In this document: piece after piece, positions 1 to 29,361 of the stretch | Position numbering within the stretch: position 1 is the stretch's first letter | How the letters are laid out: each line of letters opens with the position of its first letter | Source: Argopecten irradians | Taxonomy: Eukaryota > Mollusca > Bivalvia > Pectinida > Pectinidae | NCBI RefSeq assembly: GCF_041381155.1 | Contig: NC_091135.1 | Coordinates: forward strand, 3,117,620-3,181,619 | DNA: 64,000 bases | Direction of reading: 5' to 3' | Program-made: the position numbers and the translations under genes | Notes under the pieces: model-generated | The model's database searches: none | Seen by the model: only the letters and a program-made list of their open reading frames with translations | What the model was told of the DNA's origin: nothing

Positions 1-2844
1 AAGTAGATGTTTATAAAACAGTAAGAACAATATCAATATGGTAGATTCATTTAAAATTCCATAGTTCAAAATGATTTATAATATATAAATAATGAGAATC
101 CATTGATAGTATTTATATATAGTGTCTACATTAAAGATACAGATATTTTATTTGTCATAACCTCAATTTAATATTCATGATTGGCTTCTAATATACATGA
201 GTGGACTGACCAAAGGAGAACAAGCTATTATAGAGATTCCAGGTATGTATGCTTTGATGATTTGGAATATAACTAGATTAGTAATGCGGTGTGTATATGT
301 CTCCGTCATACTAGCGAGCGATTCGGAAGTGACACTTCTGTCCATAAGACAGTCTTCGTACATTTGTATATTATGTACGTATATCGAGTAGGTATGGGAA
401 GTCGTGTAATTATGATTTATAGAGATAAGGTGCCAGTTATAACCGTACTCCTGACCCCAGATCACAGCCAGGTCACGTAATATATATACAGCTACTTCGT
501 CAGCGTACGGCGTTTATTTCTTATTTATTGTAGTAGGCACCGATGTGCATCTATGCCGAACGTGCATAGATATAGCCCATTACACCTACACCAGATATAT
601 TCATTAATGAATAAAAAAGCTGTAAACAAAATCCCGTGTGTTACCTTTATTTTGATTGGTTTGAAGTGTGTAATTGGTATATTTTGATTGGTTATATGAG
701 TAACATCGTGTTAGATGTTCGACTCCACCTTAGGAACCAATTACAGAAATATGTCTAGTGTTTACACCTGACAATACGTGCGCTAGTTTTTTGTTCCGGC
801 CGATCGTCGTCACAGCCAACCTGTCCACTTACGGTCAAGCTGGTCATCCATCAAACATCGTGACCGCGGAAAAAGGGTCTTTCGCCATCACCTATAGTTA
901 GTCAAGAATCATGACTCGTTTTTCACTCTGATATATGGACTAGGGATTTCCTTTCTGGTAAGTTTAAACATTTTCACTCTAGGGCCTATTTAATTAGACA
1001 CGTGTTTCTAACACGTTCAGTTCTCGGAACCTAAATAATGAGAGTGTAAAAGGTGGGTAAAAAGTGTTACTAATCCCGTGCGCCCCAAGCGATGTTAATT
1101 ATTTATTAACACTATCTCCATGTATGTTATAAGTAACGCCAAATTCATGGAAGAAAATCACTTATTTGTATTTTTAGAGATCCTTGTTTGTTCACCATTC
1201 TCATTAAAATCATATATTTAAAGTTTCTGTTGGCCTCATTGGATACAGACACTCAACTATCCTTTTCATAATAAAATAAGGAAAACAGCAACCATTATTT
1301 AAAACTTATATGAATCATGATTTCAAAATATTCATATCTTAATATTGTTTGGAATTTTAAAAAACAAAAACAAACAAAAAACCTATAGAATGATTTCATT
1401 TTCGATCATCAAGACATAAATATCATATATCTTTTGGACACATATGTTTTAAGCATGACAGTTTTGTCTAAAGTAGCAATTTACTAGTGGTATATCATAT
1501 TATAATGATCATGTCTTTATCACTATAGTTACCGAGGCAAAAGCCGGTTATGACAATGTGAGCTATATATGTATTGCATCCTCTAAAACATCCGACAGAC
1601 AGTTTGTTTTACAGAGTAAATTACGTTCTTACATATAAGTATCGTCAAATCAGTGCGGATAAAATAACACAATGCATATCGCCAAAATGTTTTCAGTAGC
1701 AAGGATATCTGACTATCACTTCAGTTTTGCCATGGGTTCAGGGATGGATATAACGACAGTGTTAGTAACCAATAGATTATAAAGGATGTCGCTATCCCTA
1801 CTGCCGATAACGCTTGTAGTGAGGAGTGTTGCTATTTATCAAAAACTCAATGTACATCCGTCTGTTGTCTCCTTGGACAGATGGTCAAATCGTTGACTGC
1901 TATTTATAAATGAACCGCGCGTATTACATTGTAGAACGCTTCACATAAGAGAACCACTTCGATAGAGAACAGTATGATAATAGCTGTGATAATGTATTGA
2001 AGTACAGTTTTATCCACTCGATATCGTATCAAGGAATATTTGATTATTATATATCGACATTGCTGATATGGTGAATATCATTGACTTTAATACCATGTTT
2101 CAGGATACATATATATATATATGTATGTATTGTGGAATCACTTTTAGATCTATTTATAACCCAAATGCTATTTTGTGGTCAAACCATTTTGTATAATTTA
2201 TAAAACTGCTTTAATGTTAGGATATCGCAGAACAACTTTGACCCCAATTGGTACTATTTTGTGATAAAATATTGTTGAACTAATTTTTGTTTGTGATACA
2301 GATCAATGTCATGCTGTGGGATAGTAGGCTATATATTTATTGCATTGATGAAGCACTATATATATGACCCAAATTGATTCGGTAAATCCATTTTAATGAT
2401 GACCTTGCCCTTGTAAACTTACATCATCGCCGATCCCGATGTCTTTATTTATGATACCCAGCCACAGGTCCTTTTATATTAGATAAGGCGTTTGTTAAAT
2501 CATGCTCATAGCACAAAATGAACAATGCGACATCAAAACTCTTAATCATCGCTGTTATACATTCTCTTATTTTTCGATAATTTTCATCGGATTATACATT
2601 GTTATAGGAGGTCGATGTTTAGTATTTATGTTTGATAAAGAAACGAGGAAATTTACTCTGATTAAAACATATCAAATCTATGGTGGTTACTTCATATAAT
2701 AAACTACACATACGAAACTACACATATGTCATAGGGACATTATAATGTATACGTGTCTTTTGCATTATTATATTTCTTTGTCTATTTTTAACAGCGATAT
2801 TTGCTCGAAACAGTATCTTTTCACACTTGTGCCACGTTGATGCC
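1..2844. other. No supported gene upstream of the chitin-binding gene
   Basis: AT-rich sequence with short AT microsatellites (near 2110-2130). At about 735-900 a GC-richer stretch stays open for some 55 codons (containing TANLSTYGQAGHPSN) after an acceptor-like ATTACAG, but I recognise no family. The promoter of the 2845 gene must lie here; no TATA box is clear. Confidence 0.4.
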
Positions 2845-2972
2845 ATGACGTTGTCTCTTGAACTCTACGTACTGCTTTGGCTGTCTGTGGCGAGTCTGAC
2901 AGCAGGACTAGAACAGGCCCAGGCCAGATGGCCGTTTAACAAGATGGAAGGACAAGAGGGTACACAGTGTAG
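2845..2972 (+). CDS. Exon 1 (signal peptide) of secreted chitin-binding protein, partial gene
   Basis: Translation from the ATG at 2845 gives a typical secretory leader (MTLSLELYVLLWLSVASLTAG, residues 1-21), then a short segment ending ...WPFNKMEGQEGTQC. An ATG 5 bases earlier (2840) meets a stop after one codon, so 2845 is chosen. Two donors are possible: AG|GTATTA (exon end 2972, phase 2) and AGT|GTAGGT (exon end 2968, phase 1). Only the second joins the exon at 20102 in an open frame. The first is closer to consensus at the exon side, so an unseen intermediate exon is also possible. Reading past the donor gives a stop within the first repeat unit. The last 35 or so bases of this exon are the first copy of the 61-bp minisatellite that fills the following intron. 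The link to the 20102 and 26086 exons rests on strand, phase and secretory logic only. Confidence 0.6.
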
Positions 2973-5900
2973 GTATTACGGTACTATTGTATTGTTATAA
3001 CAAGATGGAGGGACAAGAGGGTACACAGTGTAGGTATTACGGTACTATTGTATTGTTATAACAAGATGGAAGGACAAGAGGGTACACAGTGTAGGTATTA
3101 CGGTACTATTGTATTGTTATAACAAGATGGAAGGACAAGAGGGTACACAGTGTAGGTATTACGGTACTATTGTATTGTTATAACAAGATGGAGGGACAAG
3201 AGGGTACACAGTGTAGGTATTACGGTACTATTGTATTGTTATACAAGATGGAAGGACAAGAGGGTACACAGTGTAGGTATTTACGGTACTATTGTATGTA
3301 TTGTTATAACAAGATGGAAGGACAAGAGGGTACACAGTGTAGGTATTACGGTACTATTGTATTGTTATAACAAGATGGAAGGACAAGAGGGTACACAGTG
3401 TAGGTATTACGGTACTATTGTATTGTTATAACAAGATGGAAGGACAAGAGGGTACACAGTGTAGGTATTACGGTACTATTGTATTGTTATAACAAGATGG
3501 AAGGACAAGAGGGTACACAGTGTAGGTATTACGGTACTATTGTATTGTTATAACAAGATGGAAGGACAAGAGGGTACACAGTGTAGGTATTACGGTACTA
3601 TTGTATTGTTATAACAAGATGGAAGGACAAGAGGGTACACAGTGTAGGTATTACGGTACTATTGTATTGTTATAACAAGATGGAAGGACAAGAGGGTACA
3701 CAGTGTAGGTATTACGGTACTATTGTATTGTTATAGGATGGAAGGACAAGAGGGTACACAGTGTAGGTATTACGGTACTATTGTATTGTTATAGGATGGA
3801 AGGACAAGAGGGTACACAGTGTAGGTATTACGGTACTATTGTATTGTTATAACAAGATGGAAGGACAAGAGGGTACACAGTGTAGGTATTACGGTACTAT
3901 TGTATTGTTATAGGATGGAAGGACAAGAGGGTACACAGTGTAGGTATTACGGTACTATTGTATTGTTATAACAAGATGGAAGGACAAGAGGGTACACAGT
4001 GTAGGTATTACGGTACTATTGTATTGTTATAACAAGATGGAAGGACAAGAGGGTACACAGTGTAGGTATTACGGTACTATTGTATTGTTATAACAAGATG
4101 GAAGGACAAGAGGGTACACAGTGTAGGTATTACGGTACTATTGTATTGTTATAACAAGATGGAAGGACAAGAGGGTACACAGTGTAGGTATTACGGTACT
4201 ATTGTATTGTTATAACAAGATGGAAGGACAAGAGGGTACACAGTGTAGGTATTACGGTACTATTGTATTGTTATAACAAAATGGAAGGACAAGAGGGTAC
4301 ACAGTGTAGGTATTACGGTACTATTGTATTGTTATAACAAGATGGAAGGACAAGAGGGTACACAGTGTAGGTATTACGGTACTATTGTATTGTTATAACA
4401 AGATGGAAGGACAAGAGGGTACACAGTGTAGGTATTACGGTACTATTGTATTGTTATAACAAGATGGAAGGACAAGAGGGTACACAGTGTAGGTATTACG
4501 GTACTATTGTATTGTTATAGGATGGAAGGACAAGAGGGTACACAGTGTAGGTATTACGGTACTATTGTATTGTTATAACAAGATGGAAGGACAAGAGGGT
4601 ACACAGTGTAGGTATTACGGTACTATTGTATTGTTATAACAAGATGGAAGGACAAGAGGGTACACAGTGTAGGTATTACGGTACTATTGTATTGTTATAA
4701 CAAGATGGAAGGACAAGAGGGTACACAGTGTAGGTATTACGGTACTATTGTATTGTTATATAACAGGATGGAAGGACAAGAGGGTACACAGTGTAGGTAT
4801 TACGGTACTATTGTATTGTTATAACAAGATGGAAGGACATGTGGTGACAAGAGGGTACACAGTGTAGGTATTACGGTACTATTGTATTGTTATAACAAGA
4901 TGGAAGGACAAGAGGGTACACAGTGTAGGTATTACGGTACTATTGTATTGTTATAACAAGATGGAAGGACAAGAGGGTACACAGTGTAGGTATTACGGTA
5001 CTATTGTATTGTTATAACAAGATGGAAGGACAAGAGGGTACACAGTGTAGGTATTACGGTACTATTGTATTGTTATAACAAGATGGAAGGACAAGAGGGT
5101 ACACAGTGTAGGTATTACGGTACTATTGTATTGTTATAACAAGATGGAAGGACAAGAGGGTACACAGTGTAGGTATTACGGTACTATTGTATTGTTATAA
5201 CAAGATGGAAGGACAAGAGGGTACACAGTGTAGGTATTACGGTACTATTGTATTGTTATAACAAGATGGAAGGACAAGAGGGTACACAGTGTAGGTATTA
5301 CGGTACTATTGTATTGTTATAACAAGATGGAAGGACAAGAGGGTACACAGTGTAGGTATTACGGTACTATTGTATTGTTATAACAAGATGGAAGGACAAG
5401 AGGGTACACAGTGTAGGTATTACGGTACTATTGTATTGTTATAACAAGATGGAAGGACAAGAGGGTACACAGTGTAGGTATTACGGTACTATTGTATTGT
5501 TATAACAAGATGGAAGGACAAGAGGGTACACAGTGTAGGTATTACGGTACTATTGTATTGTTATAACAAGATGGAAGGACAAGAGGGTACACAGTGTAGG
5601 TATTACGGTACTATTGTATTGTTATAAGGATGGAAGGACAAGAGGGTACACAGTGTAGGTATTACGGTACTATTGTATTGTTATAACAAGATGGAAGGAC
5701 AAGAGGGTACACAGTGTAGGTATTACGGTACTATTGTATTGTTATAACAAGATGGAAGGACAAGAGGGTACACAGTGTAGGTATTACGGTACTATTGTAT
5801 TGTTATAACAAGATGGAAGGACAAGAGGGTACACAGTGTAGGTATTACGGTACTATTGTATTGTTATAACAAGATGGAAGGACAAGAGGGTACACAGTGT

Positions 5901-8900
5901 AGGTATTACGGTACTATTGTATTGTTAAAGGGACAAGGTAGTTACGGTACTATTGTAGTTAAAGATGGAGACAAGAGGGTACACAGTGTAGGTATTACGG
6001 TACTATTGTATTGTTATAACAAGATGGAAGGACAAGAGGGTACACAGTGTAGGTATTACGGTACTATTGTATTGTTATAACAAGATGGAAGGACAAGAGG
6101 GTACACAGTGTAGGTATTACGGTACTATTGTATTGTTATAACAAGATGGAAGGACAAGAGGGTACACAGTGTAGGTATTACGGTACTATTGTATTGTTAT
6201 AACAAGATGGAAGGACAAGAGGGTACACAGTGTAGGTATTACGGTACTATTGTATTGTTATAACAAGATGGAAGGACAAGAGGGTACACAGTGTAGGTAT
6301 TACGGTACTATTGTATTGTAAGATAGGGTACACATTATTACGGTACTATTGTATTGTTATAACAAGATGGAAGGACAAGAGGGTACACAGTGTAGGTATT
6401 ACGGTACTATTGTATTGTTATAACAAGATGGAAGGACAAGAGGGTACACAGTGTAGGTATTACGGTACTATTGTATTGTTATAACAAGATGGAAGGACAA
6501 GAGGGTACACAGTGTAGGTATTACGGTACTATTGTATTGTTATAACAAGATGGAAGGACAAGAGGGTACACAGTGTAGGTATTACGGTACTATTGTATTG
6601 TTATAACAAGATGGAAGGACAAGAGGGTACACAGTGTAGGTATTACGGTACTATTGTATTGTTATAACAAGATGGAAGGACAAGAGGGTACACAGTGTAG
6701 GTATTACGGTACTATTGTATTGTTATAACAAGATGGAAGGACAAGAGGGTACACAGTGTAGGTATTACGGTACTATTGTATTGTTATAACAAGATGGAAG
6801 GACAAGAGGGTACACAGTGTAGGTATTACGGTACTATTGTATTGTTATAACAAGATGGAAGGACAAGAGGGTACACAGTGTAGGTATTACGGTACTATTG
6901 TATTGTTATAACAAGATGGAAGGACAAGAGGGTACACAGTGTAGGTATTACGGTACTATTGTATTGTTATAACAAGATGGAAGGACAAGAGGGTACACAG
7001 TGTAGGTATTACGGTACTATTGTATTGTTATAACAAGATGGAAGGACAAGAGGGTACACAGTGTAGGTATTACGGTACTATTGTATTGTTATAACAAGAT
7101 GGAAGGACAAGAGGGTACACAGTGTAGGTATTACGGTACTATTGTATTGTTATAGGATGGAAGGACAAGAGGGTACACAGTGTAGGTATTACGGTACTAT
7201 TGTATTGTTATAACAAGATGGAAGGACAAGAGGGTACACAGTGTAGGTATTACGGTACTATTGTATTGTTATAACAAGATGGAGGGACAAGAGGGTACAC
7301 AGTGTAGGTATTACGGTACTATTGTATTGTTATAACAAGATGGAGGGACAAGAGGGTACACAGTGTAGGTATTACGGTACTATTGTATTGTTATAACAAG
7401 ATGGAAGGACAAGAGGGTACACAGTGTAGGTATTACGGTACTATTGTATTGTTATAACAAGATGGAAGGACAAGAGGGTACACAGTGTAGGTATTACGGT
7501 ACTATTGTATTGTTATAACAAGATGGAAGGACAAGAGGGTACACAGTGTAGGTATTACGGTACTATTGTATTGTTATAACAAGATGGAAGGACAAGAGGG
7601 TACACAGTGTAGGTATTACGGTACTATTGTATTGTTATAACAAGATGGAAGGACAAGAGGGTACACAGTGTAGGTATTACGGTACTATTGTATTGTTATA
7701 ACAAGATGGAAGGACATGTGGTGTACAAGAGGGTACACAGTGTAGGTATTACGGTACTATTGTATTGTTATAACAAGATGGAAGGACAAGAGGGTACACA
7801 GTGTAGGTATTACGGTACTATTGTATTGTTATAACAAGATGGAAGGACAAGAGGGTACACAGTGTAGGTATTACGGTACTATTGTATTGTTATAACAAGA
7901 TGGAAGGACAAGAGGGTACACAGTGTAGGTATTACGGTACTATTGTATTGTTATAACAAGATGGAAGGACAAGAGGGTACACAGTGTAGGTATTACGGTA
8001 CTATTGTATTGTTATAACAAGATGGAAGGACAAGAGGGTACACAGTGTAGGTATTACGGTACTATTGTATTGTTATAACAAGATGGAAGGACAAGAGGGT
8101 ACACAGTGTAGGTATTACGGTACTATTGTATTGTTATAACAAGATGGAAGGACAAGAGGGTACACAGTGTAGGTATTACGGTACTATTGTATTGTTATAA
8201 CAAGATGGAAGGACAAGAGGGTACACAGTGTAGGTATTACGGTACTATTGTATTGTTATAACAAGATGGAAGGACAAGAGGGTACACAGTGTAGGTATTA
8301 CGGTACTATTGTATTGTTATAACAAGATGGAAGGACAAGAGGGTACACAGTGTAGGTATTACGGTACTATTGTATTGTTAATAGGAGATGGAAGGACAAG
8401 AGGGTACACAGTGTAGGTATTACGGTACTATTGTATTGTTATAACAAGATGGAAGGACAAGAGGGACAAGAGGGTACACAGTGTAGGTATTACGGTACTA
8501 TTGTATTGTTATAACAAGATGGAAGGACAAGAGGGTACACAGTGTAGGTATTACGGTACTATTGTATTGTTATAACAAGATGGAAGGACAAGAGGGTACA
8601 CAGTGTAGGTATTACGGTACTATTGTATTGTTATAACAAGATGGAAGGACAAGAGGGTACACAGTGTAGGTATTACGGTACTATTGTATTGTTATAACAA
8701 GATGGAAGGACAAGAGGGTACACAGTGTAGGTATTACGGTACTATTGTATTGTTATAACAAGATGGAAGGACAAGAGGGTACACAGTGTAGGTATTACGG
8801 TACTATTGTATTGTTATAACAAGATGGAAGGACAAGAGGGTACACAGTGTAGGTATTAGGTACTATTGTATTGTTATAACAAGATGGAAGGACAAGAGGG

Positions 8901-11900
8901 TACACAGTGTAGGTATTACGGTACTATTGTATTGTTATAACAAGATGGAAGGACAAGAGGGTACACAGTGTAGGTATTACGGTACTATTGTATTGTTATA
9001 ACAAGATGGAAGGACAAGAGGGTACACAGTGTAGGTATTACGGTACTATTGTATTGTTATAACAAGATGGAAGGACAAGAGGGTACACAGTGTAGGTATT
9101 ACGGTACTATTGTATTGTTATAACAAGATGGAAGGACAAGAGGGTACACAGTGTAGGTATTACGGTACTATTGTATTGTTAACAAGGATGGAAGGACAAG
9201 AGGGTACACAGTGTAGGTATTACGGTACTATTGTATTGTTATAACAAGATGGAAGGACAAGAGGGTACACAGTGTAGGTATTACGGTACTATTGTATTGT
9301 TATAACAAGATGGAAGGACAAGAGGGTACACAGTGTAGGTATTACGGTACTATTGTATTGTTATAACAAGATGGAAGGACAAGAGGGTACACAGTGTAGG
9401 TATTACGGTACTATTGTATTGTTATAACAAGATGGAAGGACAAGAGGGTACACAGTGTAGGTATTACGGTACTATTGTATTGTTATAACAAGATGGAAGG
9501 ACAAGAGGGTACACAGTGTAGGTATTACGGTACTATTGTATTGTTATAACAAGATGGAAGGACAAGAGGGTACACAGTGTAGGTATTACGGTACTATTGT
9601 ATTGTTATAACAAGATGGAAGGACAAGAGGGTACACAGTGTAGGTATTACGGTACTATTGTATTGTTATAACAAGATGGAAGGACAAGAGGGTACACAGT
9701 GTAGGTATTACGGTACTATTGTATTGTTATAACAAGATGGAAGGACAAGAGGGTACACAGTGTAGGTATTACGGTACTATTGTATTGTTATAACAAGATG
9801 GAAGGACAAGAGGGTACACAGTGTAGGTATTACGGTACTATTGTATTGTTATAACAAGATGGAAGGACAAGAGGGTACACAGTGTAGGTATTACGGTACT
9901 ATTGTATTGTTATAGGATGGAAGGACAAGAGGGTACACAGTGTAGGTATTACGGTACTATTGTATTGTTATAACAGAAGATGGAACGAGGGACAAGTTAG
10001 GTACACAGTGTAGGTATTACGGTACTATTGTATTGTACTATTGTATGTTAAGGACAAGAGGGTACACAGTGTAGTGTAGGTATTACGGTACTATTGTATT
10101 GTTATAACAAGATGGAGGGACAAGAGGGTACACAGTGTAGGTATTACGGTACTATTGTATTGTTATAACAAGATGGAAGGACAAGAGGGTACACAGTGTA
10201 GGTATTACGGTACTATTGTATTGTTATAACAAGATGGAAGGACAAGAGGGTACACAGTGTAGGTATTACGGTACTATTGTATTGTTATAACAAGATGGAG
10301 GACAAGAGGGTACACAGTGTAGGTATTACGGTACTATTGTATTGTTATAACAAGATGGAAGGACAAGAGGGTACACAGTGTAGGTATTACGGTACTATTG
10401 TATTGTTATAACAAGATGGAAGGACAAGAGGGTACACAGTGTAGGTATTACGGTACTATTGTATTGTTTTAACAAGATGGAAGGACAAGAGGGAGTGTAG
10501 GAACGGTACTAATTGTTATAACAAGATGGAGGACAAGAGGGTACACAGTGTAGGTATTACGGTACTATTGTATTGTTATAACAGAGGATGGAAGGACAAG
10601 AGGGTACACAGTGTAGGTATTACGGTACTATTGTATTGTTATAACAAGATGGAAGGACAAGAGGGTACACAGTGTAGGTATTACGGTACTATTGTATTGT
10701 TATAACAAGATGGAAGGACAAGAGGGTACACAGTGTAGGTATTACGGTACTATTGTATTGTTATAACAAGATGGAAGGACAAGAGGGTACACAGTGTAGG
10801 TATTACGGTACTATTGTATTGTTATAACAAGATGGAAGGACAAGAGGGTACACAGTGTAGGTATTACGGTACTATTGTATTGTTATAACAAGATGGAAGG
10901 ACAAGAGGGTACACAGTGTAGGTATTACGGTACTATTGTATTGTTATAACAAGATGAAGGACAAGAGGGTACACAGTGTAGGTATTACGGTACTATTGTA
11001 TTGTTATAACAAGATGGAAGGACAAGAGGGTACACAGTGTAGGTATTACGGTACTATTGTATTGTTATAACAAGATGGAAGGACAAGAGGGTACACAGTG
11101 TAGGTATTACGGTACTATTGTATTGTTATAACAAGATGGAAGGACAAGAGGGTACACAGTGTAGGTATTACGGTACTATTGTATTGTTATAACAAGATGG
11201 AGGACAGAGGGTACACAGTGTAGGTATTACGGTACTATTGTATTGTTATAACAAGATGGAAGGACAAGAGGGTACACAGTGTAGGTATTACGGTACTATT
11301 GTATTGTTATAACAAGATGGAAGGACAAGAGGGTACACAGTGTAGGTATTACGGTACACAAGATGGAAGGACAAGAGGGTACACAGTGTAGGTATTAACG
11401 GTACTATTGTATTGTTATAACAAGATGGAAGGACAAGAGGGTACACAGTGTAGGTATTACGGTACTATTGTATTGTTATAACAAGATGGAAGGACAAGAG
11501 GGTACACAGTGTAGGTATTACGGTACTATTGTATTGTTATAACAAGATGGAAGGACAAGAGGGTACACAGTGTAGTATTACGGTACTATTGTATTGTTAT
11601 ACAAGATGGAGGACAAGAGGGTACACAGTGTAGGTATTACGGTACTATTGTATTGTTATAACAAGATGGAAGGACAAGAGGGTACACAGTGTAGGTATTA
11701 CGGTACTATTGTATTGTTATAACAAGATGGAAGGACAGAGGGTACACAGTGTAGGTATTACGGTACTATTGTATTGTTATAACAAGATGGAAGGACAAGA
11801 GGGTACACAGTGTAGGTATTACGGTACTATTGTATTGTTATAACAAGATGGAAGGACAAGAGGGTACACAGTGTAGGTATTACGGTACTATTGTATTGTT

Positions 11901-14900
11901 ATAACAAGATGGAAGGACAAGAGGGTACACAGTGTAGGTATTACGGTACTATTGTATTGTTATAACAAGATGGAAGGACAAGAGGGTACACAGTGTAGGT
12001 ATTACGGTACTATTGTATTGTTATAACAAGATGGAAGGACAAGAGGGTACACAGTGTAGGTATTACGGTACTATTGTATTGTTATAACAAGATGGAAGGA
12101 CAAGAGGGTACACAGTGTAGGTATTACGGTACTATTGTATTGTTATAACAAGATGGAAGGACAAGAGGGTACACAGTGTAGGTATTACGGTACTATTGTA
12201 TTGTTATAACAAGATGGAAGGACAAGAGGGTACACAGTGTAGGTATTACGGTACTATTGTATTGTTATAACAAGATGGAAGGACAAGAGGGTACACAGTG
12301 TAGGTATTACGGTACTATTGTATTGTTATAACAAGATGGAAGGACAAGAGGGTACACAGTGTAGGTATTACGGTACTATTGTATTGTTATAACAAGATGG
12401 AAGGACAAGAGGGTACACAGTGTAGGTATTACGGTACTATTGTATTGTTATAACAAGATGGAAGGACAAGAGGGTACACAGTGTAGGTATTACGGTACTA
12501 TTGTATTGTTATAACAAGATGGAAGGACAAGAGGGTACACAGTGTAGGTATTACGGTACTATTGTATTGTTATAACAAGATGGAAGGACAAGAGGGTACA
12601 CAGTGTAGGTATTACGGTACTATTGTATTGTTATAACAAGATGGAAGGACAAGAGGGTACACAGTGTAGGTATTACGGTACTATTGTATTGTTATAACAA
12701 GATGGAGGGACAAGAGGGTACACAGTGTAGGTATTACGGTACTATTGTATTGTTATAACAAGATGGAAGGACAAGAGGGTACACAGTGTAGGTATTACGG
12801 TACTATTGTATTGTTATAACAAGATGGAAGGACAAGAGGGTACACAGTGTAGGTATTACGGTACTATTGTATTGTTATAACAAGATGGAAGGACAAGAGG
12901 GTACACAGTGTAGGTATTACGGTACTATTGTATTGTTATAACAAGATGGAAGGACAAGAGGGTACACAGTGTAGGTATTACGGTACTATTGTATTGTTAT
13001 AGGATGGAAGGACAAGAGGGTACACAGTGTAGGTATTACGGTACTATTGTATTGTTATAACAAGATGGAGGGACAAGAGGGTACACAGTGTAGGTATTAC
13101 GGTACTATTGTATTGTTATAACAAGATGGAAGGACAAGAGGGTACACAGTGTAGGTATTACGGTACTATTGTATTGTTATAGGATGGAAGGACAAGAGGG
13201 TACACAGTGTAGGTATTACGGTACTATTGTATTGTTATAACAAGATGGAAGGACAAGAGGGTACACAGTGTAGGTATTACGGTACTATTGTATTGTTATA
13301 ACAAGATGGAAGGACAAGAGGGTACACAGTGTAGGTATTACGGTACTATTGTATTGTTTATAACAAGATGGAAGGACAAGAGGGTACACAGTGTAGGTAT
13401 TACGGTACTATTGTATTGTTATAACAAGATGGAATGTGGGACAAGAGGGTACACAGTGTAGGTATTACGGTACTATTGTATTGTTATAACAAGATGGAAG
13501 GACAAGAGGGTACACAGTGTAGGTATTACGGTACTATTGTATTGTTATAACAAGATGGAGGGACAAGAGGGTACACAGTGTAGGTATTACGGTACTATTG
13601 TATTGTTATAACAAGATGGAAGGACAAGAGGGTACACAGTGTAGGTATTACGGTACTATTGTATTGTTATAACAAGATGGAAGGACAAGAGGGTACACAG
13701 TGTAGGTATTACGGTACTATTGTATTGTTATAACAAGATGGAAGGACAAGAGGGTACACAGTGTAGGTATTACGGTACTATTGTATTGTTATAACAAGAT
13801 GGAGGGACAAGAGGGTACACAGTGTAGGTATTACGGTACTATTGTATTGTTATAACAAAATGGAAGGACAAGAGGGTACACAGTGTAGGTATTACGGTAC
13901 TATTGTATTGTTATAACAAAATGGAAGGACAAGAGGGTACACAGTGTAGGTATTACGGTACTATTGTATTGTTATAACAAGATGGAAGGACAAGAGGGTA
14001 CACAGTGTAGGTATTACGGTACTATTGTATTGTTATTACAAGATGGAAGGACAAGAGGGTACACAGTGTAGGTATTACGGTACTATTGTATTGTTATAAC
14101 AAGATGGAAGGGACAAGAGGGTACACAGTGTAGGTATTACGGTACTATTGTATTGTTATAACAAGATGGAAGGACAAGAGGGTACACAGTGTAGGTATTA
14201 CGGTACTATTGTATTGTTATAACAAGATGGAAGGACAAGAGGGTACACAGTGTAGGTATTACGGTACTATTGTATTGTTATAACAAGATGGAAGGACAAG
14301 AGGGTACACAGTGTAGGTATTACGGTACTATTGTATTGTTATAGGATGGAAGGACAAGAGGGTACACAGTGTAGGTATTACGGTACTATTGTATTGTTAT
14401 AACAAGATGGAAGGACAAGAGGGTACACAGTGTAGGTATTACGGTACTATTGTATTGTTATAACAAGATGGAAGGACAAGAGGGTACACAGTGTAGGTAT
14501 TACGGTACTATTGTATTGTTATAACAAGATGGAAGGACAAGAGGGTACACAGTGTAGGTATTACGGTACTATTGTATTGTTATAACAAGATGGAAGGACA
14601 AGAGGGTACACAGTGTAGGTATTACGGTACTATTGTATTGTTATAACAAGATGGAAGGGACAAGAGGGTACACAGTGTAGGTATTACGGTACTATTGTAT
14701 TGTTATAACAAGATGGAAGGACAAGAGGGTACACAGTGTAGGTATTACGGTACTATTGTATTGTTAGGTACACAGTGTAGGATGGAAGGACAGAAGAGGG
14801 TACACAGTGTAGGTATTACGGTACTATTGTATTGTTATAACAAGATGGAAGGACAAGAGGGTACACAGTGTAGGTATTACGGTACTATTGTATTGTTATA

Positions 14901-17900
14901 ACAAGATGGAAGGACAAGAGGGTACACAGTGTAGGTATTACGGTACTATTGTATTGTTATAACAAGATGGAAGGACAAGAGGGTACACAGTGTAGGTATT
15001 ACGGTACTATTGTATTGTTATAACAAGATGGAAGGACAAGAGGGTACACAGTGTAGGTATTACGGTACTATTGTATTGTTATAAGATGGAAGGACAAGAG
15101 GGTACACAGTGTAGGTATTACGGTACTATTGTATTGTTATAACAAGATGGAAGGACAAGAGGGTACACAGTGTAGGTATTACGGTACTATTGTATTGTTA
15201 TAACAAGATGGAAGGACAAGAGGGTACACAGTGTAGGTATTACGGTACTATTGTATTGTTATAACAAGATGGAAGGACAAGAGGGTACACAGTGTAGGTA
15301 TTACGGTACTATTGTATTGTTATAACAAGATGGAAGGACAAGAGGGTACACAGTGTAGGTATTACGGTACTATTGTATTGTTATAACAAGATGGAAGGAC
15401 AAGAGGGTACACAGTGTAGGTATTACGGTACTATTGTATTGTTATAACAAGATGGAAGGACAAGAGGGTACACAGTGTAGGTATTACGGTACTATTGTAT
15501 TGTTATAACAAGATGGAAGGACAAGAGGGTACACAGTGTAGGTATTACGGTACTATTGTATTGTTATAACAAGATGGAAGGACAAGAGGGTACACAGTGT
15601 AGGTATTACGGTACTATTGTATTGTTATAGGATGGAAGGACAAGAGGGTACACAGTGTAGGTATTACGGTACTATTGTATTGTTATAACAAGATGGAAGG
15701 ACAAGAGGGTACACAGTGTAGGTATTACGGTACTATTGTATTGTTATAGGATGGAAGGACAAGAGGGTACACAGTGTAGGTATTACGGTACTATTGTATT
15801 GTTATAACAAGATGGAAGGACAAGAGGGTACACAGTGTAGGTATTACGGTACTATTGTATTGTTATAACAAGATGGAAGGACAAGAGGGTACACAGTGTA
15901 GGTATTACGGTACTATTGTATTGTTATAACAAGATGGAAGGACAAGAGGGTACACAGTGTAGGTATTACGGTACTATTGTATTGTTATAACAAGATGGAG
16001 GGACAAGAGGGTACACAGTGTAGGTATTACGGTACTATTGTATTGTTATAGGATGGAAGGACAAGATGGAAGGACAAGAGGGTACACAGTGTAGGTATTA
16101 CGGTACTATTGTATTGTTATAACAAGATGGAAGGACAAGAGGGTACACAGTGTAGGTATTACGGTACTATTGTATTGTTATAACAAGATGGAAGGACAAG
16201 AGGGTACACAGTGTAGGTATTACGGTACTATTGTATTGTTATAACAAGATGGAAGGACAAGAGGGTACACAGTGTAGGTATTACGGTACTATTGTATTGT
16301 TATAACAAGATGGAGGACAAGAGGGTACACAGTGTAGGTATTACGGTACTATTGTATTGTTATAACAAAGATGGAAGGACAAGAGGGTACACAGTGTAGG
16401 TATTACGGTACTATTGTATTGTTATAACAAAGATGGAAGGACAAGAGGGTACACAGTGTAGGTATTACGGTACTATTGTATTGTTATAACATGGATGGAA
16501 GGACAAGAGGGTACACAGTGTAGGTATTACGGTACTATTGTATTGTTATAGGATGGAAGGACAAGAGGGTACACAGTGTAGGTATTACGGTACTATTGTA
16601 TTGTTATAACAAGATGGAAGGACAAGAGGGTACACAGTGTAGGTATTACGGTACTATTGTATTGTTATAACAAGATGGAAGGACAAGAGGGTACACAGTG
16701 TAGGTATTACGGTACTATTGTATTGTTATAACAAGATGGAAGGACAAGAGGGTACACAGTGTAGGTATTACGGTACTATTGTATTGTTATAACAAGATGG
16801 AAGGACAAGAGGGTACACAGTGTAGGTATTACGGTACTATTGTATTGTTATAACAAGATGGAAGGACAAGAGGGTACACAGTGTAGGTATTACGGTACTA
16901 TTGTATTGTTATAACAAGATGGAAGGACAAGAGGGTACACAGTGTAGGTATTACGGTACTATTGTATTGTTATAACAAGATGGAAGGACAAGAGGGTACA
17001 CAGTGTAGGTATTACGGTACTATTGTATTGTTATAGGATGGAAGGACAAGAGGGTACACAGTGTAGGTATTACGGTACTATTGTATTGTTATAACAAAAT
17101 GGAAGGACAAGAGGGTACACAGTGTAGGTATTACGGTACTATTGTATTGTTATAACAAGATGGAAGGACAAGAGGGTACACAGTGTAGGTATTACGGTAC
17201 TATTGTATTGTTATAACAAGATGGAAGGACAAGAGGGTACACAGTGTAGGTATTACGGTACTATTGTATTGTTATAACAAGATGGAGGACAAGAGGGTAC
17301 ACAGTGTAGGTATTACGGTACTATTGTATTGTTATAACAAGATGGAAGGACAAGAGGGTACACAGTGTAGGTATTACGGTACTATTGTATTGTTATAAAC
17401 AAGATGGAAGGACAAGAGGGTACACAGTGTAGGTATTACGGTACTATTGTATTGTTATAACAAAATGGAATGGTAGGACAAGAGGGTACACAGTGTAGGT
17501 ATTACGGTACTATTGTATTGTTATAACAAGATGGAAGGACAAGAGGGTACACAGTGTAGGTATTACGGTACTATTGTATTGTTATAACAAGATGGAAGGA
17601 CAAGAGGGTACACAGTGTAGGTATTACGGTACTATTGTATTGTTATAACAAGATGGAAGGACAAGAGGGTACACAGTGTAGGTATTACGGTACTATTGTA
17701 TTGTTATAACAAGATGGAAGGACAAGAGGGTACACAGTGTAGGTATTACGGTACTATTGTATTGTTATAACAAAGGATGGAAGGACAAGAGGGTACACAG
17801 TGTAGGTATTACGGTACTATTGTATTGTTATAACAAGATGGAAGGACAAGAGGGTACACAGTGTAGGTATTACGGTACTATTGTATTGTTATAACAAGAT

Positions 17901-19417
17901 GGAAGGACAAGATTACACAGTGTAGGTATTACGGTACTATTGTATTGTTATAACATGATGGAAGGACAAGAGGGTACACAGTGTAGGTATTACGGTACTA
18001 TTGTATTGTTATAACAAATGATGGAAGGACAAGAGGGTACACAGTGTAGGTATTACGGTACTATTGTATTGTTATAACAAGATGGAAGGACAAGAGGGTA
18101 CACAGTGTAGGTATTACGGTACTATTGTATTGTTATAACAAGATGGAAGGACAAGAGGGTACACAGTGTAGGTATTACGGTACTATTGTATTGTTATAAC
18201 AAGATGGAAGGGACAAGAGGGTACACAGTGTAGGTATTACGGTACTATTGTATTGTTATAACAAGATGGAAGGACAAGAGGGTACACAGTGTAGGTATTA
18301 CGGTACTATTGTTATTGTTATAACAAGATGGAAGGGACAAGAGGGTACACAGTGTAGGTATTACGGTACTATTGTATTGTTATAACAAGATGGAAGGACA
18401 AGAGGGTACACAGTGTAGGTATTACGGTACTATTGTATTGTTATAACAAGATGGAAGGACAAGAGGGTACACAGTGTAGGTATTACGGTACTATTGTATT
18501 GTTATAACAAGATGGAAGGACAAGAGGGTACACAGTGTAGGTATTACGGTACTATTGTATTGTTATAACAAGATGGAAGGACAAGAGGGTACACAGTGTA
18601 GGTATTACGGTACTATTGTATTGTTATAACAAGATGGAAGGACAAGAGGGTACACAGTGTAGGTATTACGGTACTATTGTATTGTTATAACAGGGATGGA
18701 AGGACAAGAGGGTACACAGTGTAGGTATTACGGTACTATTGTATTGTTATAACAAGATGGAAGGACAAGAGGGTACACAGTGTAGGTATTACGGTACTAT
18801 TGTATTGTTATAACAAGATGGAAGGGACAAGAGGGTACACAGTGTAGGTATTACGGTACTATTGTATTGTTTATAACAAGATGGAAGGACAAGAGGGTAC
18901 ACAGTGTAGGTATTACGGTACTATTGTATTGTTATAACAAGATGGAAGGACAAGAGGGTACACAGTGTAGGTATTACGGTACTATTGTATTGTTATACAA
19001 GATGGAAGGACAAGAGGGTACACAGTGTAGGTATTACGGTACTATTGTATTGTTATAAGGATGGAAGGACAAGAGGGTACACAGTGTAGGTATTACGGTA
19101 CTATTGTATTGTTATAGATGGAAGTACAAGAGGGTACACAGTGTAGGTATTACGGTACTATTGTATTGTTATAGGATGGAAGAACAAGAGGGTACACAGC
19201 GTAGGTATTACGGTACTATTGTATTGTTATAGGATGGAAGGACAAGAGGGTACACAGTGTAGGTATTACGGTACTATTGTATTGTTATAACAAGATGGAA
19301 GGACAAGAGGGTACACAGTGTAGGTATTACGGTACTATTGTATTGTTATAACAAGATGGAAGGACAAGAGGGTACACAGTGTAGGTATTACGGTACTATT
19401 GTATTGTTATAGGATGG
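2935..19417 (+). repeat. 61-bp minisatellite, ~270 copies, in intron 1
   Basis: A tandem array of about 16.5 kb. The unit is 61 bp, with key pieces AACAAGATGGAAGGACAAGA, GGGTACACAGTGTAGGTATT and ACGGTACTATTGTATTGTTA; a recurrent 58-bp variant has TTATAGGATGG in place of TTATAACAAGATGG. Most copies are identical. Scrambled or partial units occur near 4840, 5930, 6320, 7715, 9975-10070, 10480-10510, 11350, 14765 and 16060. The first copy overlaps the end of exon 1, including its codons and both candidate donors. Because 61 is not a multiple of 3 and each unit ends with TTATAA, reading frames through it close quickly, so the array is not protein-coding. Confidence 0.97.
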
Positions 19418-20101
19418 GGTCAAAGGTATCACAATTTAAACTTGGCCTGGCTACGTGAAATTGTATTATCTTTATAATTAGTTACAACATATTCACTCAA
19501 TATAAACATACCGAACGACGATGATGGTATGGGGTCTATTGGCTTTTCGAGAGCGATTTCTGAAATAGAAAGGGCAAAATTTAAGCCGGACTGAAATTAG
19601 TCGGTGACTAGTTATCAAATTTGGTGGAACATTCAGCAATAGAGATTCATATGCGCGAAATCGTATCTGTTTACAGCATTTTCTCCATTTTACATCTCTA
19701 CTGTAGAAATTAAGGTATAAAGCTGCAAAAACAACTTCCTTATGTGGCCATAGAAATGTCAGTTGTCAAAGTTTACATGCAAAGACTGCAACAATGATTT
19801 ACTTACCAAACTTATACAGGCTTCTTGTATGGTTTTCGAATCTCCGTTTTAAAATAGATGGGAAAAGTGTGATAAGACCGTTGATATGTTAAAGTTGTCG
19901 ATCAGATAGAAAATGCGTCCAGGCATCTGGACCCACCCTTTGATATTTCAGAAGTCTCCATTCCACTATATGTTCTGTTAATATTTAATGAAGACAAATG
20001 CTAATGTCGATGATGACTTCGTTATACTTCGTTGTTTTGTTTCCTTCTATTGTATTGGTATAGTCATATATTAACTAAAACTCTCCTTGTTCTCAATCCA
20101 G
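19418..20101. other. Intron 1 remainder, no recognised feature
   Basis: Unique AT-rich sequence between the 61-bp array and exon 2. I see no coding exon, RNA gene or repeat, apart from the pyrimidine tract and acceptor of exon 2 at its end. Confidence 0.5.
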
Positions 20102-20350
20102 TTATCAACGCTCCTCTTCTCACAAACATCGACAATAGCAACAATATCTTTGACACAAATACCATCGATACAATGGACAACATCAATAACATCAACAACA
20201 TCGGGAACTATGGAAACTGTCCCCTGGAGCGACACGAGAGTCCCAACATGTACTACCACAGGGAATCATTTGGGAAACGATTTGAACGAAAATGCCCTGA
20301 CAGATTGATTTTCAGTGAAGTTGACTGCGCATGCGCCTTCCCTCCTGACG
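20102..20350 (+). CDS. Exon 2: Asn-rich linker plus chitin-binding (peritrophin-A/CBM14-type) domain
   Basis: The exon follows a pyrimidine-rich acceptor (ctccttgttctcaatccag) and ends at GACG|GTTAGT in phase 1. It encodes an Asn/Ile/Thr/Asp-rich stretch of about 35 residues, then a cysteine domain: C-P-L-E-R-H..., FGKRFERKCPDRLIF, CAC, FPPD. Spacing is C-x24-C-x10-C-x-C. The FGKxF...CPxxLIFS...CxCxFPP pattern is the one I associate with chitin-binding type-2 domains of molluscan shell-matrix and cuticle-like proteins. Phase 1 joins exactly to the 26086 exon, giving PPD-E-C. The protein is probably extracellular and chitin-binding; the specific role (shell, periostracum, mucus) cannot be told from sequence. 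Open frame upstream of 20102 is probably intronic. Confidence 0.75.
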
Positions 20351-20701
20351 GTTAGTCTTCCACAGAGTATATTTATCATTAATTCCTCATTAGTTCTACA
20401 TCATTGAAAGTCACAATAACTAATTGTATCGTGAGGAGATTTTGTCAATGTTGAAAATAAGATTAAACAAAAAAGACATACAAAAGCTAAACAAGCAACA
20501 TTCCACTTTGATTGTATGTTATACGAAATCCAACTAAGAATACCTTTCCTGCAGAATTATTGAAATTGTTCCTCCTCTAGTTTTTTAACCAATGTTTGAA
20601 ATACCCACATTTTCTACAAGGACCACACCTCAATTCGATATTTGAGAGTGCTTAGACGAATTGTTTTCTTGTGGAGATTCTGCATCATAACCCTCGTTAA
20701 C

Positions 20702-23700
20702 TAGCGTGTCTTCCTACAGTATACAGGTCTTGATGTGTCCCCATACCACGTTAACTAGTTTGTCTTGCTGCAGTACACAGGTCTTGATGTGTCTCCATAC
20801 CCCGTTCACTAGTTTGTCTTGCTGCAGTACACAGGTCTTGATGTGTCTCCATACCACGTTAACTAGTTTGTCTTGCTGCAGTACACAGGTCTTGATGTGT
20901 CTCCATACCACGTTAACTAGTTTGTCTTGCTGCAGTACACAGGTCTTGATTGTCTCCATTGTACACCATCTCCATACCACGTTAATTAGTTTGTCTTGCT
21001 GTAGTACACAGGTCTTGATGTGTCTCCATACCACGTTAATAGTTTGTCTTGCTGCAGTACACAGGTCTTGACGTCTCCAATACCACGTTAACTAGTTTGT
21101 CTTGCTGCAGTACACAGGTCTTGATGTGTGTCTCCATACCACGTTAACTAGTTTGTCTTGCTGCAGTACACAGGTCTTGATGTGTCTCCATACCACGTTA
21201 ACTAGTTTGTCTTGCTGTAGTACACAGGTCTTGATGTGTCTCCATACCACGTTAACTAGTTTTGTCTTGCTGCAGTACACAGGTCTTGATGTGTCTCCAT
21301 ACCACGTTAACTAGTTTGTCTTGCTGCAGTACACAGGTCTTGATGTGTCTCCATACCACGTTAACTAGTTTGTCTTGCTGCAGTACACAGGTCTTGATGT
21401 GTCTCCATACCACGTTAACTAGTTTGTCTTGCTGCAGTACACAGGTCTTGATGTGTCTCCATACCACGTTAACTAGTTTGTCTTGCTGCAGTACACAGGT
21501 CTTGATGTGTCTCCATACCACGTTAACTAGTTTGTCTTGCTGCAGTACACAGGTCTTGATGTGTCTCCATACCACGTTAACTAGTTTGTCTTGCTGCAGT
21601 ACACAGGTCTTGATGTGTCTCCATACCACGTTACTAGTTTGTCTTGCTGCAGTACACAGGTCTTGATGTGTCTCCATACCTCGTTAACTAGTTTGTCTTG
21701 CTGCAGTACACAGGTCTTGATGTGTCTCCATAACACGTTATTTACTTTGTCTTGCTGCAGTACACAGGTCTTGATGTGTCTCCATACCACGTTAACTAGT
21801 TTGTCTTGCTGCAGTACACAGGTCTTGATGTGTCTCCATACCACGTTAACTAGTTTGTCTTGCTGCAGTACACAGGTCTTGATGTGTCTCCATACCACGT
21901 TAACTAGTTTGTCTTGCTGCAGTACACAGGTCTTGATGTGTCTCCATACCACGTTAACTAGTTTGTCTTGCTGCAGTACACAGGTCTTGATGTGTCTCCA
22001 TACCACGTTAACTAGTTTGTCTTGCTGCAGTACACAGGTCTTGATGTGTGTCTCCATACCACGTTAACTAGTTTGTCTTGCTGCAGTACACAGGTCTTGA
22101 TGTGTCTCCATACCACGTTAACTAGTTTGTCTTGCTGCAGTACACAGGTCTTGATGTGTCTCCATACCACGTTAACTAGTTTGTCTTGCTGCAGTACACA
22201 GGTCTTGATGTGTCTCCATACCACGTTTAACTAGTTTGTCTTGCTGCAGTACACAGGTCTTGATGTGTCTCCATACCACGTTAACTAGTTTGTCTTGCTG
22301 CAGTACACAGGTCTTGATGTGTCTCCATACCACGTTAACTAGTTTGTCTTGCTGCAGTACACAGGTCTTGATGTGTGTCTCCATACCACGTTAACTAGTT
22401 TGTCTTGCTGCAGTACACAGGTCTTGATGTGTCTCCATACCACGTTAACTAGTTTGTCTTGCTGCAGTACACAGGTCTTGATGTGTCTCCATACCACGTT
22501 AACTAGTTTGTCTTGCTGCAGTACACAGGTCTTGATGTGTGTCTCCATACCACGTTAACTAGTTTGTCTTGCTGCAGTACACAGGTCTTGATGTGTCTCC
22601 ATACCACGTTAACTAGTTTGTCTTGCTGCAGTACACAGGTCTTGATGTGTCTCCATACCACGTTAACTAGTTTGTCTTGCTGCAGTACACAGGTCTTGAT
22701 GTGTGTCTCCATACCACGTTAACTAGTTTGTCTTGCTGCAGTACACAGGTCTTGATGTGTCTCCATACCACGTTAACTAGTTTGTCTTGCTGCAGTACAC
22801 AGGTCTTGATGTGTCTCCATACCACGTTAACTAGTTTGTCTTGCTGCAGTACACAGGTCTTGATGTGTCTCCATACCACGTTAACTAGTTTGTCTTGCTG
22901 CAGTACACAGGTCTTGATGTGTCTCCATACCACGTTAACTAGTTTGTCTTGCTGCAGTACACAGGTCTTGATGTGTCTCCATACCACGTTAACTAGTTTG
23001 TCTTGCTGCAGTACACAGGTCTTGATGTGTCTCCATACCACGTTAACTAGTTTGTCTTGCTGCAGTACACAGGTCTTGATGTGTCTCCATACCACGTTAA
23101 CTAGTTTGTCTTGCTACAGTACACAGGTCTTGATGTGTCTCCATACCACGTTAACTATTTGTCTTGCTGCAGTATACACAGGTCTTGATGTGTCTCCATA
23201 ACACGTTATTTACTTTGTCTTGCTGCAATACACAGGTCTTGATGTGTCTCCATACCTCGTTAACTAGTTTGTCTTGCTGCAGTACACAGGTCTTGATGTG
23301 TCTCCATACCACGTTAACTAGTTTGTCTTGCTGCAGTACACAGGTCTTGATGTGTGTCTCCATACCACGTTATTTACTTTGTCTTGCTACAGTACACAGG
23401 TCTTGATGTGTGTCTCCATACCACGTTAACTAGTTTGTCTTGCTGCAGTACACAGGTCTTGATGTGTCTCCATACCACGTTAACTAGTTTGTCTTGCTGC
23501 AGTACACAGGTCTTGATGTGTGTCTCCATACCACGTTAACTAGTTTGTCTTGCTGCAGTACACAGGTCTTGATGTGTCTCCATACCACGTTAACTAGTTT
23601 GTCTTGCTGCAGTACACAGGTCTTGATGTGTGTCCCCATACCACGTTAACTAGTTTGTCTTGCTGCAGTACACAGGTCTTGATGTGTGTCTCCATACCAC

Positions 23701-25098
23701 GTTAACTAGTTTGTCTTGCTGTAGTACACAGGTCTTGATGTGTGTCTCCATACCACGTTAACTAGTTTGTCTTGCTGCAGTACACAGGTCTTGATGTGTC
23801 TCCATACCACGTTAACTAGTTTGTCTTGCTGCAGTACACAGGTCTTGATGTGTCTCCATACCACGTTAACTAGTTTGTCTTGCTGCAGTACACAGGTCTT
23901 GATGTGTTTCTCCATACCACGTTAACTAGTTTGTCTTGCTGCAGTACACAGGTCTTGATGTGTCTCCATACCACGTTAACTAGTTTGTCTTGCTGCAGTA
24001 CACAGGTCTTGATGTGTCTCCATACCACGTTAACTAGTTTGTCTTGCTGCAGTACACAGGTCTTGATGTGTTTCCCCATACCACGTTAACTAGTTTGTCT
24101 TGCTGCAGTACACAGGTCTTGATGTGTGTCTCCATACCACGTTAACTAGTTTGTCTTGCTGCAGTACACAGGTCTTGATGTGTCTCCATACCACGTTAAC
24201 TAGTTTGTCTTGCTGCAGTACACAGGTCTTGATGTGTCTCCATACCACGTTAACTAGTTTGTCTTGCTGCAGTACACAGGTCTTGATGTGTCTCCATACC
24301 ACGTTAACTAGTTTGTCTTGCTGTAGTACACAGGTCTTGATGTGTCTCCATACCACGTTAACTAGTTTGTCTTGCTGCAGTACACAGGTCTTGATGTGTG
24401 TCTCCATCCCACGTTATCTAGTTTGTCTTGCTGCAGTACACAGGTCTTGATGTGTGTCTCCATACCTCGTTAACTAGTTTGTCTTGCTGCAGTACACAGG
24501 TCTTGATGTGTCTCCATACCCACGTTATCTAGTTTGTCTTGCTGCAGTACACAGGTCTTGATGTGTCTCCATACCACGTTAACTAGTTTGTCTTGCTGTA
24601 GTACACAGGTCTTGATGTGTTTCTCCATACCACGTTAACTAGTTTGTCTTGCTGTAGTACACAGGTCTTGATGTGTCTCCATACCACGTTAACTAGTTTG
24701 TTTGTCTGTCCCATACACGTTAACTAGTTTGTCTTGCTGCAGTACACAGGTCTTGATGTGTGTCTCCATACCACGTTATTTACTTTGTCTTGCTGCAGTA
24801 CACAGGTCTTGATGTGTGTCTCCATACCACGTTAACTAGTTTGTCTTGCTGCAGTACACAGGTCTTGATGTGTCTCCATACCACGTTAACTAGTTTGTCT
24901 TGCTGCAGTACACAGGTCTTGATGTGTGTCTCCATACCTCGTTAACTAGTTTGTCTTGCTGCAGTACACAGGTCTTGATGTGTCTCCATACCACGTTAAC
25001 TAGTTTGTCTTGATGTGTCTCCATACCTCGTTAACTAGTTTGTCTTGCTGCAGTACACATATCTTCATATGTGTCTCCATACTTCGTTAACTAGTTTG
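20702..25098 (+). repeat. 54-bp minisatellite, ~81 copies, in intron 2
   Basis: The unit is 54 bp, with key pieces CTAGTTTGTCTTGCTGCAGT, ACACAGGTCTTGATGTGTCT and CCATACCACGTTAA. Variants of 56 bp carry a doubled GT (GATGTGTGTCTCC). Other variants read CCATAACACGTTATTTACTT (near 21725 and 23205) or CATACCTCGTTAAC. The 56-bp variant recurs with a 164-bp spacing at 22375, 22539 and 22703 (54+54+56), which is a trimeric higher-order repeat; 22047 to 22375 is twice that distance. Both strands give long ORFs only because 54 is divisible by 3; these are not genes. The unit contains a PstI-type CTGCAG and a palindromic GTTAAC. Confidence 0.97.
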
Positions 25099-26085: not shown

Positions 26086-26232
26086 AATGTACTGGAATGA
26101 AGACATCCCCCGACGGCCCAAGATATTACCAGCAGTACGCGGTCGGACGCTGGGTGACGATGAAGTGCGCCCCTGGGACGGTCTACAATAAGGCGTCGTG
26201 TCGCTGTGACATCCATAGCGAGTTTGGCCAAA
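26086..26232 (+). CDS. Exon 3: second chitin-binding domain
   Basis: Acceptor gtttgtcaccag|AATGTACTGG and donor CCAAA|GTAAGC bound a 147-nt exon, phase 1 in and phase 1 out. It encodes ECTGMKTSPDGPRYYQQYAV followed by GRWVTMKCAPGTVYNKASCR, then CDIHSEFGQ. The cysteine plan C-x25-C-x9-C-x-C repeats that of the previous exon, so the protein has two tandem CBM14-like domains. In molluscan proteins of this type a further C-terminal region (often LamG-like) usually follows. I could not find convincing later exons: one phase-compatible candidate at 28253 meets a stop before its donor. The gene is therefore 3'-incomplete in this annotation. A 43-bp minisatellite starts about 30 bases into the next intron. 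Confidence 0.75.
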
Positions 26233-29199: not shown

Positions 29200-29361
29200 T
29201 ATAGGGATCGGATTTCGTTTTTATGTTAACCATGCTTGTATGGAGCAATTCCTCTAAGAATATATTCTATGGGGCGCGTTAGCGCCCCATATTGAATATA
29301 TTCTTAGAGGAATTGCTCCATACAAGCATGGTTAACATAAAAACGAAATCCAATCCCTATA
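29200..29361. mobile_element. 162-bp near-perfect palindrome (MITE-like)
   Basis: Two arms of about 80 bp are nearly perfect reverse complements. Outer ends read TATAGGGATCGGATTTCG and CGAAATCCAATCCCTATA; the centre is GGGGCGC-GTTA-GCGCCCC. The right arm has two extra bases next to AAGAATATATTC. There is no coding capacity. A clear target-site duplication is not visible because the flanks are AT-rich. The element class is inferred from structure only. Confidence 0.8.

Follow-up and report, generated by a model that had tools for sequence, protein, structure and literature searches.

A 61-bp minisatellite of about 271 copies at a predicted exon–intron boundary in a putative scallop chitin-binding protein gene

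Tandem repeats that run across an exon–intron boundary, in units bearing AG/GT signals, have been described in amphioxus as mirages. In the available text of the two reports they occur in Adh3, the globin genes BflGb6 and BflGb9, TnC and PGBD5, lie at both 5′ and 3′ boundaries, have units of 10–160 bp and show concerted evolution within a cluster, and both regular splicing and length instability are reported (PMC3087553, PMC3902484). Here we describe an array of this layout in the scallop Argopecten irradians: a 61-bp minisatellite that begins within the predicted signal-peptide exon of a gene whose product is predicted to be a secreted chitin-binding (CBM_14) protein. It lies in a stretch of 64,000 nucleotides (assembly GCF_041381155.1, contig NC_091135.1, positions 3,117,620 to 3,181,619 of the forward strand), hereafter the window, and positions are counted from the first letter of the window. 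The features at the boundary are as follows.

2934–19411, + strand: 61-bp minisatellite of about 271 copies with 265 intact donor strings, delimited by Tandem Repeats Finder (TRF) and wrap-around alignment, with an exact core private to the locus
2845–2968, + strand: coding part of the predicted signal-peptide exon, proposed from open frame, codon score, hydrophobic core and phase 1; its last 35 bp are array copy 1
2793–2794, + strand: candidate 3′ splice site, strong, ranking third of 2038 AGs outside the two largest arrays with a human-type acceptor matrix
2969–2974, + strand: favoured 5′ splice site, AGT/GTAGGT, predicted, with a score of 4.36 and a phase that matches exon 2
2998–3000, + strand: in-frame TAA ahead of donor 2, which would be reached if any later donor were used
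19413–19417, + strand: GATGG at the right border, equal to the GATGG at 2943–2947 on the left and a candidate microhomology of the first duplication

Turri reportedly described in 1995 a minisatellite with multiple donor sites in the human gene IFI6 (6-16, G1P3), the unit and copy number of which are said to be much smaller than those of the scallop array. The scallop array resembles IFI6, as presented in the available text of a later report, in having a minisatellite at an exon as the source of several splice donors (PMC4526556), and it resembles the internal tandem repeats of human segmental duplications, which in the available text likewise cross exon–intron boundaries (PMC2812944). As in a mirage, the tandem unit spans the boundary, the end copy is the authentic boundary (given the predicted exon) and the copies carry splice signals (265 intact CAGTGTAGGTA). 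The mirage reports considered here are confined to cephalochordates and the present host is a scallop, which limits past sampling rather than mechanism. A myosin exon of this genome (L126) agrees with the scallop PDB chains 2os8, 1dfk, 1dfl, 1b7t and 1kk7 at 52 of 53 aligned residues; the one difference, at the first residue, falls ahead of the acceptor of the exon, and the exon part is identical to 1kk7 and 2os8. The squid chain 3i5f matches less well, and COX1 was searched for and not found. In the available text, the lancelet clusters have few copies (6 and 3 in two BflGb6 haplotypes), whereas the scallop array has about 271 copies over 16.5 kb; similarly, regular splicing and length instability are amphioxus observations, whereas the scallop array is described from one assembly. 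A literature search found no mollusc report by title or opening abstract, with subscription journals sparsely covered. By this comparison, the 61-bp array would belong to an already described class, and what is new would be the phylum and the unusual size.

The array itself is clear. An earlier note on this DNA had claimed an approximately 270-fold array over 2935–19417. TRF on the window confirmed it (2937–19411, period 61, 270 copies), as did wrap-around alignment (2934–19411, 271.1 head-to-tail copies), with 55 substitutions, 100 inserted bases and 159 deleted bases. Its end had to be corrected to 19411; the figure of 19417 includes the bordering GATGG. The consensus was matched exactly by 188 of 272 parsed segments (two end pieces counted), and unit-level variants are present within the array in this one assembly. 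Within the array there are 265 intact copies of the donor string CAGTGTAGGTA, and on the + strand of the window it is found nowhere else. Nearly all copies thus carry a donor, where the earlier note had proposed that every later copy does.

The 30-bp core of the unit occurred 260 times in forward and never in reverse orientation in the 846-Mb assembly, and all 260 exact cores lie in the window; at this exact-core level, a search of the whole assembly found no other site. The upstream DNA (2500–2933) and the downstream DNA (19412–20360) each matched only themselves in the genome. Judged by its exact core, the array is therefore private to this locus, and it would most likely have been built from local sequence. 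Tandem cores can occur in bivalve mobile elements, and a dispersed satellite or a mobile element with a Helitron-type tandem core could have inserted at the junction. However, copies elsewhere, the mark of a dispersed satellite, were absent (only exact copies were scored), and with flanks that match only themselves we consider such an insertion extremely improbable.

We infer transcription, the choice of donor, neutrality and the mechanism of duplication, and consider it probable that an exon-end segment was duplicated, that the array expanded neutrally and that splicing takes place at the first copy. The process would have begun when 58–61 bp across the border between the signal-peptide exon and intron 1 were duplicated in tandem; short direct repeats, for example the GATGG found at each border, probably aided this first step. 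Unequal exchange or slippage may then have expanded the array to about 271 copies inside the intron, with the first copy remaining the real exon end and the remaining copies intronic. Splicing would most likely occur at the first donor, since the exon that this donor closes is 174 nt long and has a strong acceptor, whereas later donors would give ever longer exons with a stop codon; the array would thus be largely neutral. The TAA at 2998–3000 precedes donor 2, so that, as the earlier note had pointed out, use of any later donor would truncate the protein.

The joints between units are of two kinds, 220 of TTATAACAAGATGG and 17 of TTATAGGATGG, and the latter set includes the right border. The TTATAGGATGG joints, with their 58-bp units, would be the expected product of a duplication between two GATGG copies, and the two joint types thus fit with microhomology at the borders. 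There are 31 distinct alleles of the unit with small changes, and in 19 of them the changes are confined to a set of 16 columns out of 61 (p = 4e-5 by a binomial calculation, assuming independent alleles). Those 16 columns are the joint between the right border of one unit and the left border of the next.

The first copy of the unit is the 3′ end of the predicted exon, which supports the earlier claim that the exon end seeded the array. The open reading frame (ORF) from the ATG at 2845 to 2968 reads MTLSLELYVLLWLSVASLTAGLEQAQARWPFNKMEGQEGTQ, and the open frame spans 2746–3000. For comparison we took the 321 ATGs that open a frame of 30 codons or more (both strands, four large arrays excluded). 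The codon score and hydrophobicity of ATG 2845 were jointly reached by two of them, ATG 2845 included; the second is an internal ATG of the G-protein-coupled receptor ORF. Singly, the codon score was reached by 7 and the hydrophobicity by 41. Splice sites were scored with matrices of human values, not trained on this genome. The strong acceptor at 2793–2794 implies that the signal-peptide exon is maybe not the first of the transcript: it suggests an internal exon at 2795–2968 with a 5′ untranslated region (UTR) exon further upstream. The earlier description of this exon as exon 1 may therefore need correction; we keep the number for convenience. Under this model the in-frame part 2795–2845, which scores as non-coding (−0.178), would be 5′ UTR. 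The remainder of the predicted gene consists of two exons.

20102–20350, + strand: predicted exon 2, first CBM_14-like module, with an acceptor ranking 15th of 2038 and a donor ranking 75th of 2425
26086–26232 (alternative end 26253), + strand: predicted exon 3, second CBM_14-like module, proposed from open frame, phase, Pfam and donor rank

When fused with exon 1, the two exons matched Pfam CBM_14 at 29.1 bits (cut-off 22.1), while singly the modules scored 15.8 and 20.8 bits, both under the cut-off. Two donors had been offered for exon 1, AGT/GTAGGT and AG/GTATTA. Exon ends at 2968, 2959 and 2980 give phase 1, and an end at 2972 (AG/GTATTA) gives phase 2; frame counts from exon 2 to exon 3 give phase 1 junctions. 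The reading phase of exon 2 therefore allows AGT/GTAGGT and rejects AG/GTATTA.

Several points weigh against the reading given above. The signal-peptide exon at 2845 is supported but not proven; it is a prediction. Its codon score is a weak witness, which separates frames poorly (0.330, compared to 0.246 and 0.206 for the other two frames of the stretch). Its donor is middling: among GTs outside arrays (the array's own copies excluded), 208 of 2425 score at least as well, compared to 75 for the donor of exon 2 and 60 or 32 for that of exon 3. The exon copy equals the array consensus over 2939–2998 and is without sign of separate selection. A close paralog with a single-copy junction was sought and not found among 14 matches (three of which are the gene itself); the nearest is 40% identical and spans little beyond exon 3. 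In addition, two downstream repeat units of human IFI6 act as donors, giving three mRNA species, according to the available text of that report (PMC4526556), and human repeats at exon–intron boundaries can, in the available text of another, alter splicing and create alternative introns (PMC2812944). In IFI6 the downstream donors are reported to be used, and the human repeats concern recent paralogs with RNA support, whereas the scallop donors are predicted from the DNA sequence.

If the exon model is wrong, the repeat would be an ordinary minisatellite in intergenic or intronic DNA, while the ORF at 2845 would be due to chance or end elsewhere. The predicted status of the exon and the poor separation of frames by codon score are consistent with this, as is the non-coding score of 2795–2845 (though that part would be 5′ UTR), and the presence of three phase 1 donors per unit weakens the phase match. 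However, ATG 2845 is in the top two of 321 by joint score and has a strong acceptor just upstream. Moreover, the CBM_14 protein formed from exons 2 and 3 should require a signal exon, and reading 19412–20101 by eye revealed none better: the frame of the ATG at 20010 stops at 20061, 38 bp ahead of the exon 2 acceptor. We therefore regard a wrong exon model as quite unlikely.

The strength of the donor is no surprise in a unit of this length, and we rejected it as one: a donor as strong is present in 25.6% of random 61-bp pieces of the window's non-repeat DNA. When the stretch 2795–8000 was folded, copy 1 had a predicted unpaired probability of 0.027. The other 81 of its 82 copies had a median of 0.018, at the 55th percentile of all positions folded. 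The idea that RNA structure hides the later donors was dropped, as there was no notable difference between copy 1 and the others.

Could the array of donors be regulatory? The U1 small nuclear ribonucleoprotein would then bind many copies, later donors would give a truncated, decay-prone transcript, and array length would tune output. The 265 intact donor strings, the TAA ahead of donor 2 and the middling predicted authentic donor all suit this idea, and one worm minisatellite has been reported to be enriched near multiple alternative splicing. So do the use of downstream repeat donors reported for human IFI6 (PMC4526556) and the altered splicing at boundary repeats of human paralogs (PMC2812944), as given in the available texts. 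In contrast, an equally good donor arises in a quarter of random 61-bp segments (the 25.6% above), the predicted accessibility of the array donors is ordinary in the folded stretch, and amphioxus cases reportedly splice normally in the available text (PMC3087553, PMC3902484). Nor do the donor columns look specially conserved: they rank 26th of 61 windows, from least variable, for substitutions plus deletions, although for substitutions alone their rate is low (0.0004 compared to 0.0039). By the same measure of substitutions plus deletions, splice-site columns ranked 20th of 43 in a 43-bp array of the same gene, and 9th of 38, 4th of 87 and 23rd of 60 in three arrays of other genes described below (dipeptidase, L063 and L052, respectively). 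Overall, we think a regulatory array unlikely, and continue to favour a largely neutral array spliced at its first copy.

Similar arrays are found in other genes of this genome. One of them lies 15–17 kb upstream of the window start, in a gene for a membrane dipeptidase (Pfam Peptidase_M19, 74 bits for two joined exons). This array (L027:2194–4406, G000 C2) has about 58 copies of a 38-bp unit, headed by the exon end GADYDGVPS with donor GTAAGT, and GTAAGT occurs 57 times in the stretch examined. In two dipeptidase paralogs, L033 and L041, that exon end and a donor occur in single copy, without an array on the junction, although L033 has other repeats nearby; a third paralog, L036, had no match to the exon-end motif, and its junction was left unjudged. 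In the dipeptidase array, the first copy and the consensus disagree at 6 of the 38 positions. The exon copy and the array therefore evolve apart, unlike in the main array. The two arrays are independent but alike in architecture.

Three SLC6 donors (L088, L094 and L079) have an exon end that is the first copy of an intronic array. For SLC6 acceptors (L063 with its paralog L069, and L052) and a myosin acceptor (L131), the exon start is the first copy. The straddling loci read in protein context were donors L042, L088, L094 and L079 and acceptors L052, L063 and L131. Straddling at L079 was judged by eye, as its TRF start is 64 bp past the match, and L069 was judged from TRF alone; as paralogs, L063 and L069 count as one event. 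The L063 unit is 87 bp, a multiple of three, and is open in the translated stretch.

These cases come from 114 exon-centred loci of the same genome, found with the protein of this gene and four Pfam families. They include 60 short stretches chosen by rank or short open frame before the sequence was seen; four of the 60 span two listed exons, and only their outer edges were used. With TRF (period at least 15, copies at least 2.8, score at least 90), the 114 loci yielded 37 arrays, some shared between neighbouring loci. Eight arrays overlapped the edge of an exon match, or seven once L112 was dropped on reading (its hidden Markov model match extended beyond the exon); L055, a contig edge, was not used. 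A hand count gave 7 array edges in approximately 17 kb just inside exons and 22 in approximately 132 kb of intron 75–1300 bp away (loci with 1.5-kb flanks). These figures suggested that splice junctions are preferred minisatellite seeds in this genome, for example via transcription-linked breaks.

An echo test, which is free of TRF thresholds, did not confirm this. For each junction we asked whether a 20-base probe, with as many as 4 mismatches allowed, recurs in its own intron no more than 280 bp away. Loci L055, L112, L033, L036, L054 and L057 were left out; among the other 109 loci, the site score was passed by 71 donor edges and 77 acceptor edges, and 70 edges went uncounted. The GT chosen by the program at L042 lies about 9 bp beyond the true donor, and 0.3-kb flanks shortened some search stretches. 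Echoes were found at 5 of 71 donors and 9 of 77 acceptors (14 of 148 in total), compared to 0.06 and 0.03 expected from running the probes in other loci. Exon-interior probes gave 1 of 71 and 5 of 77. Deep-intron probes (54 loci, three distances), which are not independent when taken from one locus, gave 64, 89 and 111 of 864 (7.4, 10.3 and 12.8%). At 2 mismatches the junctions gave 9 of 148 (deep intron 6.7–10.3%) and at 3 mismatches 13 of 148 (6.8–11.8%). A stricter earlier version of the test had given 4 of 44 donors and 7 of 75 acceptors, with exon controls of 0 of 44 and 2 of 75.

The junction echo rate is thus close to the deep-intron rate, which argues against both a preference for junctions as seeds and strong selection on the copies. 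The splice junction looks neither preferred nor avoided as an array seed, and we now find preferential seeding rather improbable. The genome has several such arrays, and echoes occur at about the intron rate, which fits tolerance; it is not supported that the array must be a special hazard or regulator, one of the two options raised in the earlier note. Seven loci (L126, L077, L102, L106, L113, L118 and L127) have junction echoes in their own intron with one or two extra copies. These short echoes are possibly array precursors or decayed alternative exons. A bolder proposal is that the scallop genome is strewn with junction duplications (2 to about 271 copies, at about one in ten sampled junctions), and that the CBM_14 array is the extreme, its length setting the truncated share of transcript through U1 competition, which would make splice-site copy number a heritable and fast-mutating dial of gene output; we hold this to be very unlikely.

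The CBM_14 gene has two further arrays.

20695–25102, + strand: intron 2 array of a 54-bp unit, detected by TRF
26266–26721, + strand: array of 10.6 copies of a 43-bp unit, detected by TRF and beginning 12 bp past the 26254 donor

The 54-bp array contains the acceptor-like TCTTGCTGCAG, and exact copies of TCTTGCTGCAGTACACAG number 67 in the window. The 43-bp array contains TGTAAGT five times and TGTATGT four times.

Elsewhere, the window contains a foldback at 29199–29362 (two 80-nt arms, 94% complementary, 4 nt between) and inverted repeats at 32064–33178 (312-nt arms, 97% complementary, 491 nt between) and 60329–61401 (514-nt arms, 96% complementary, 45 nt between). On the − strand, an open frame of 1001 codons (42692–45697) has many leucine-rich repeats and a rhodopsin-type seven-transmembrane domain (Pfam 7tm_1, 82.7 bits). 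A long mixed array at 38985–41154 has short units around ACCGATACTTATTATC. Broken open frames on the − strand at 51658–54027 appear transposase-like by impression, with two frames lacking Pfam support. A Pfam scan of ten ORFs elsewhere in the window gave no match near cut-off.

Hundreds of identical 5′ splice sites past an exon would, by textbook accounts of splicing, be predicted to do harm. Nevertheless, this array of donors is found in an apparently intact gene, and smaller versions are present in dipeptidase, SLC6 and myosin genes. The near-equal rates of echoes at junctions and in deep introns suggest that extra copies beside a splice site come at low cost. Provided that splicing keeps faithfully to the first site, such arrays would be natural experiments on how the spliceosome chooses among equal sites. 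Boundary arrays may also be raw material for intron gain by tandem duplication, in line with the proposal made for amphioxus globin in the available text of that report (PMC3087553).

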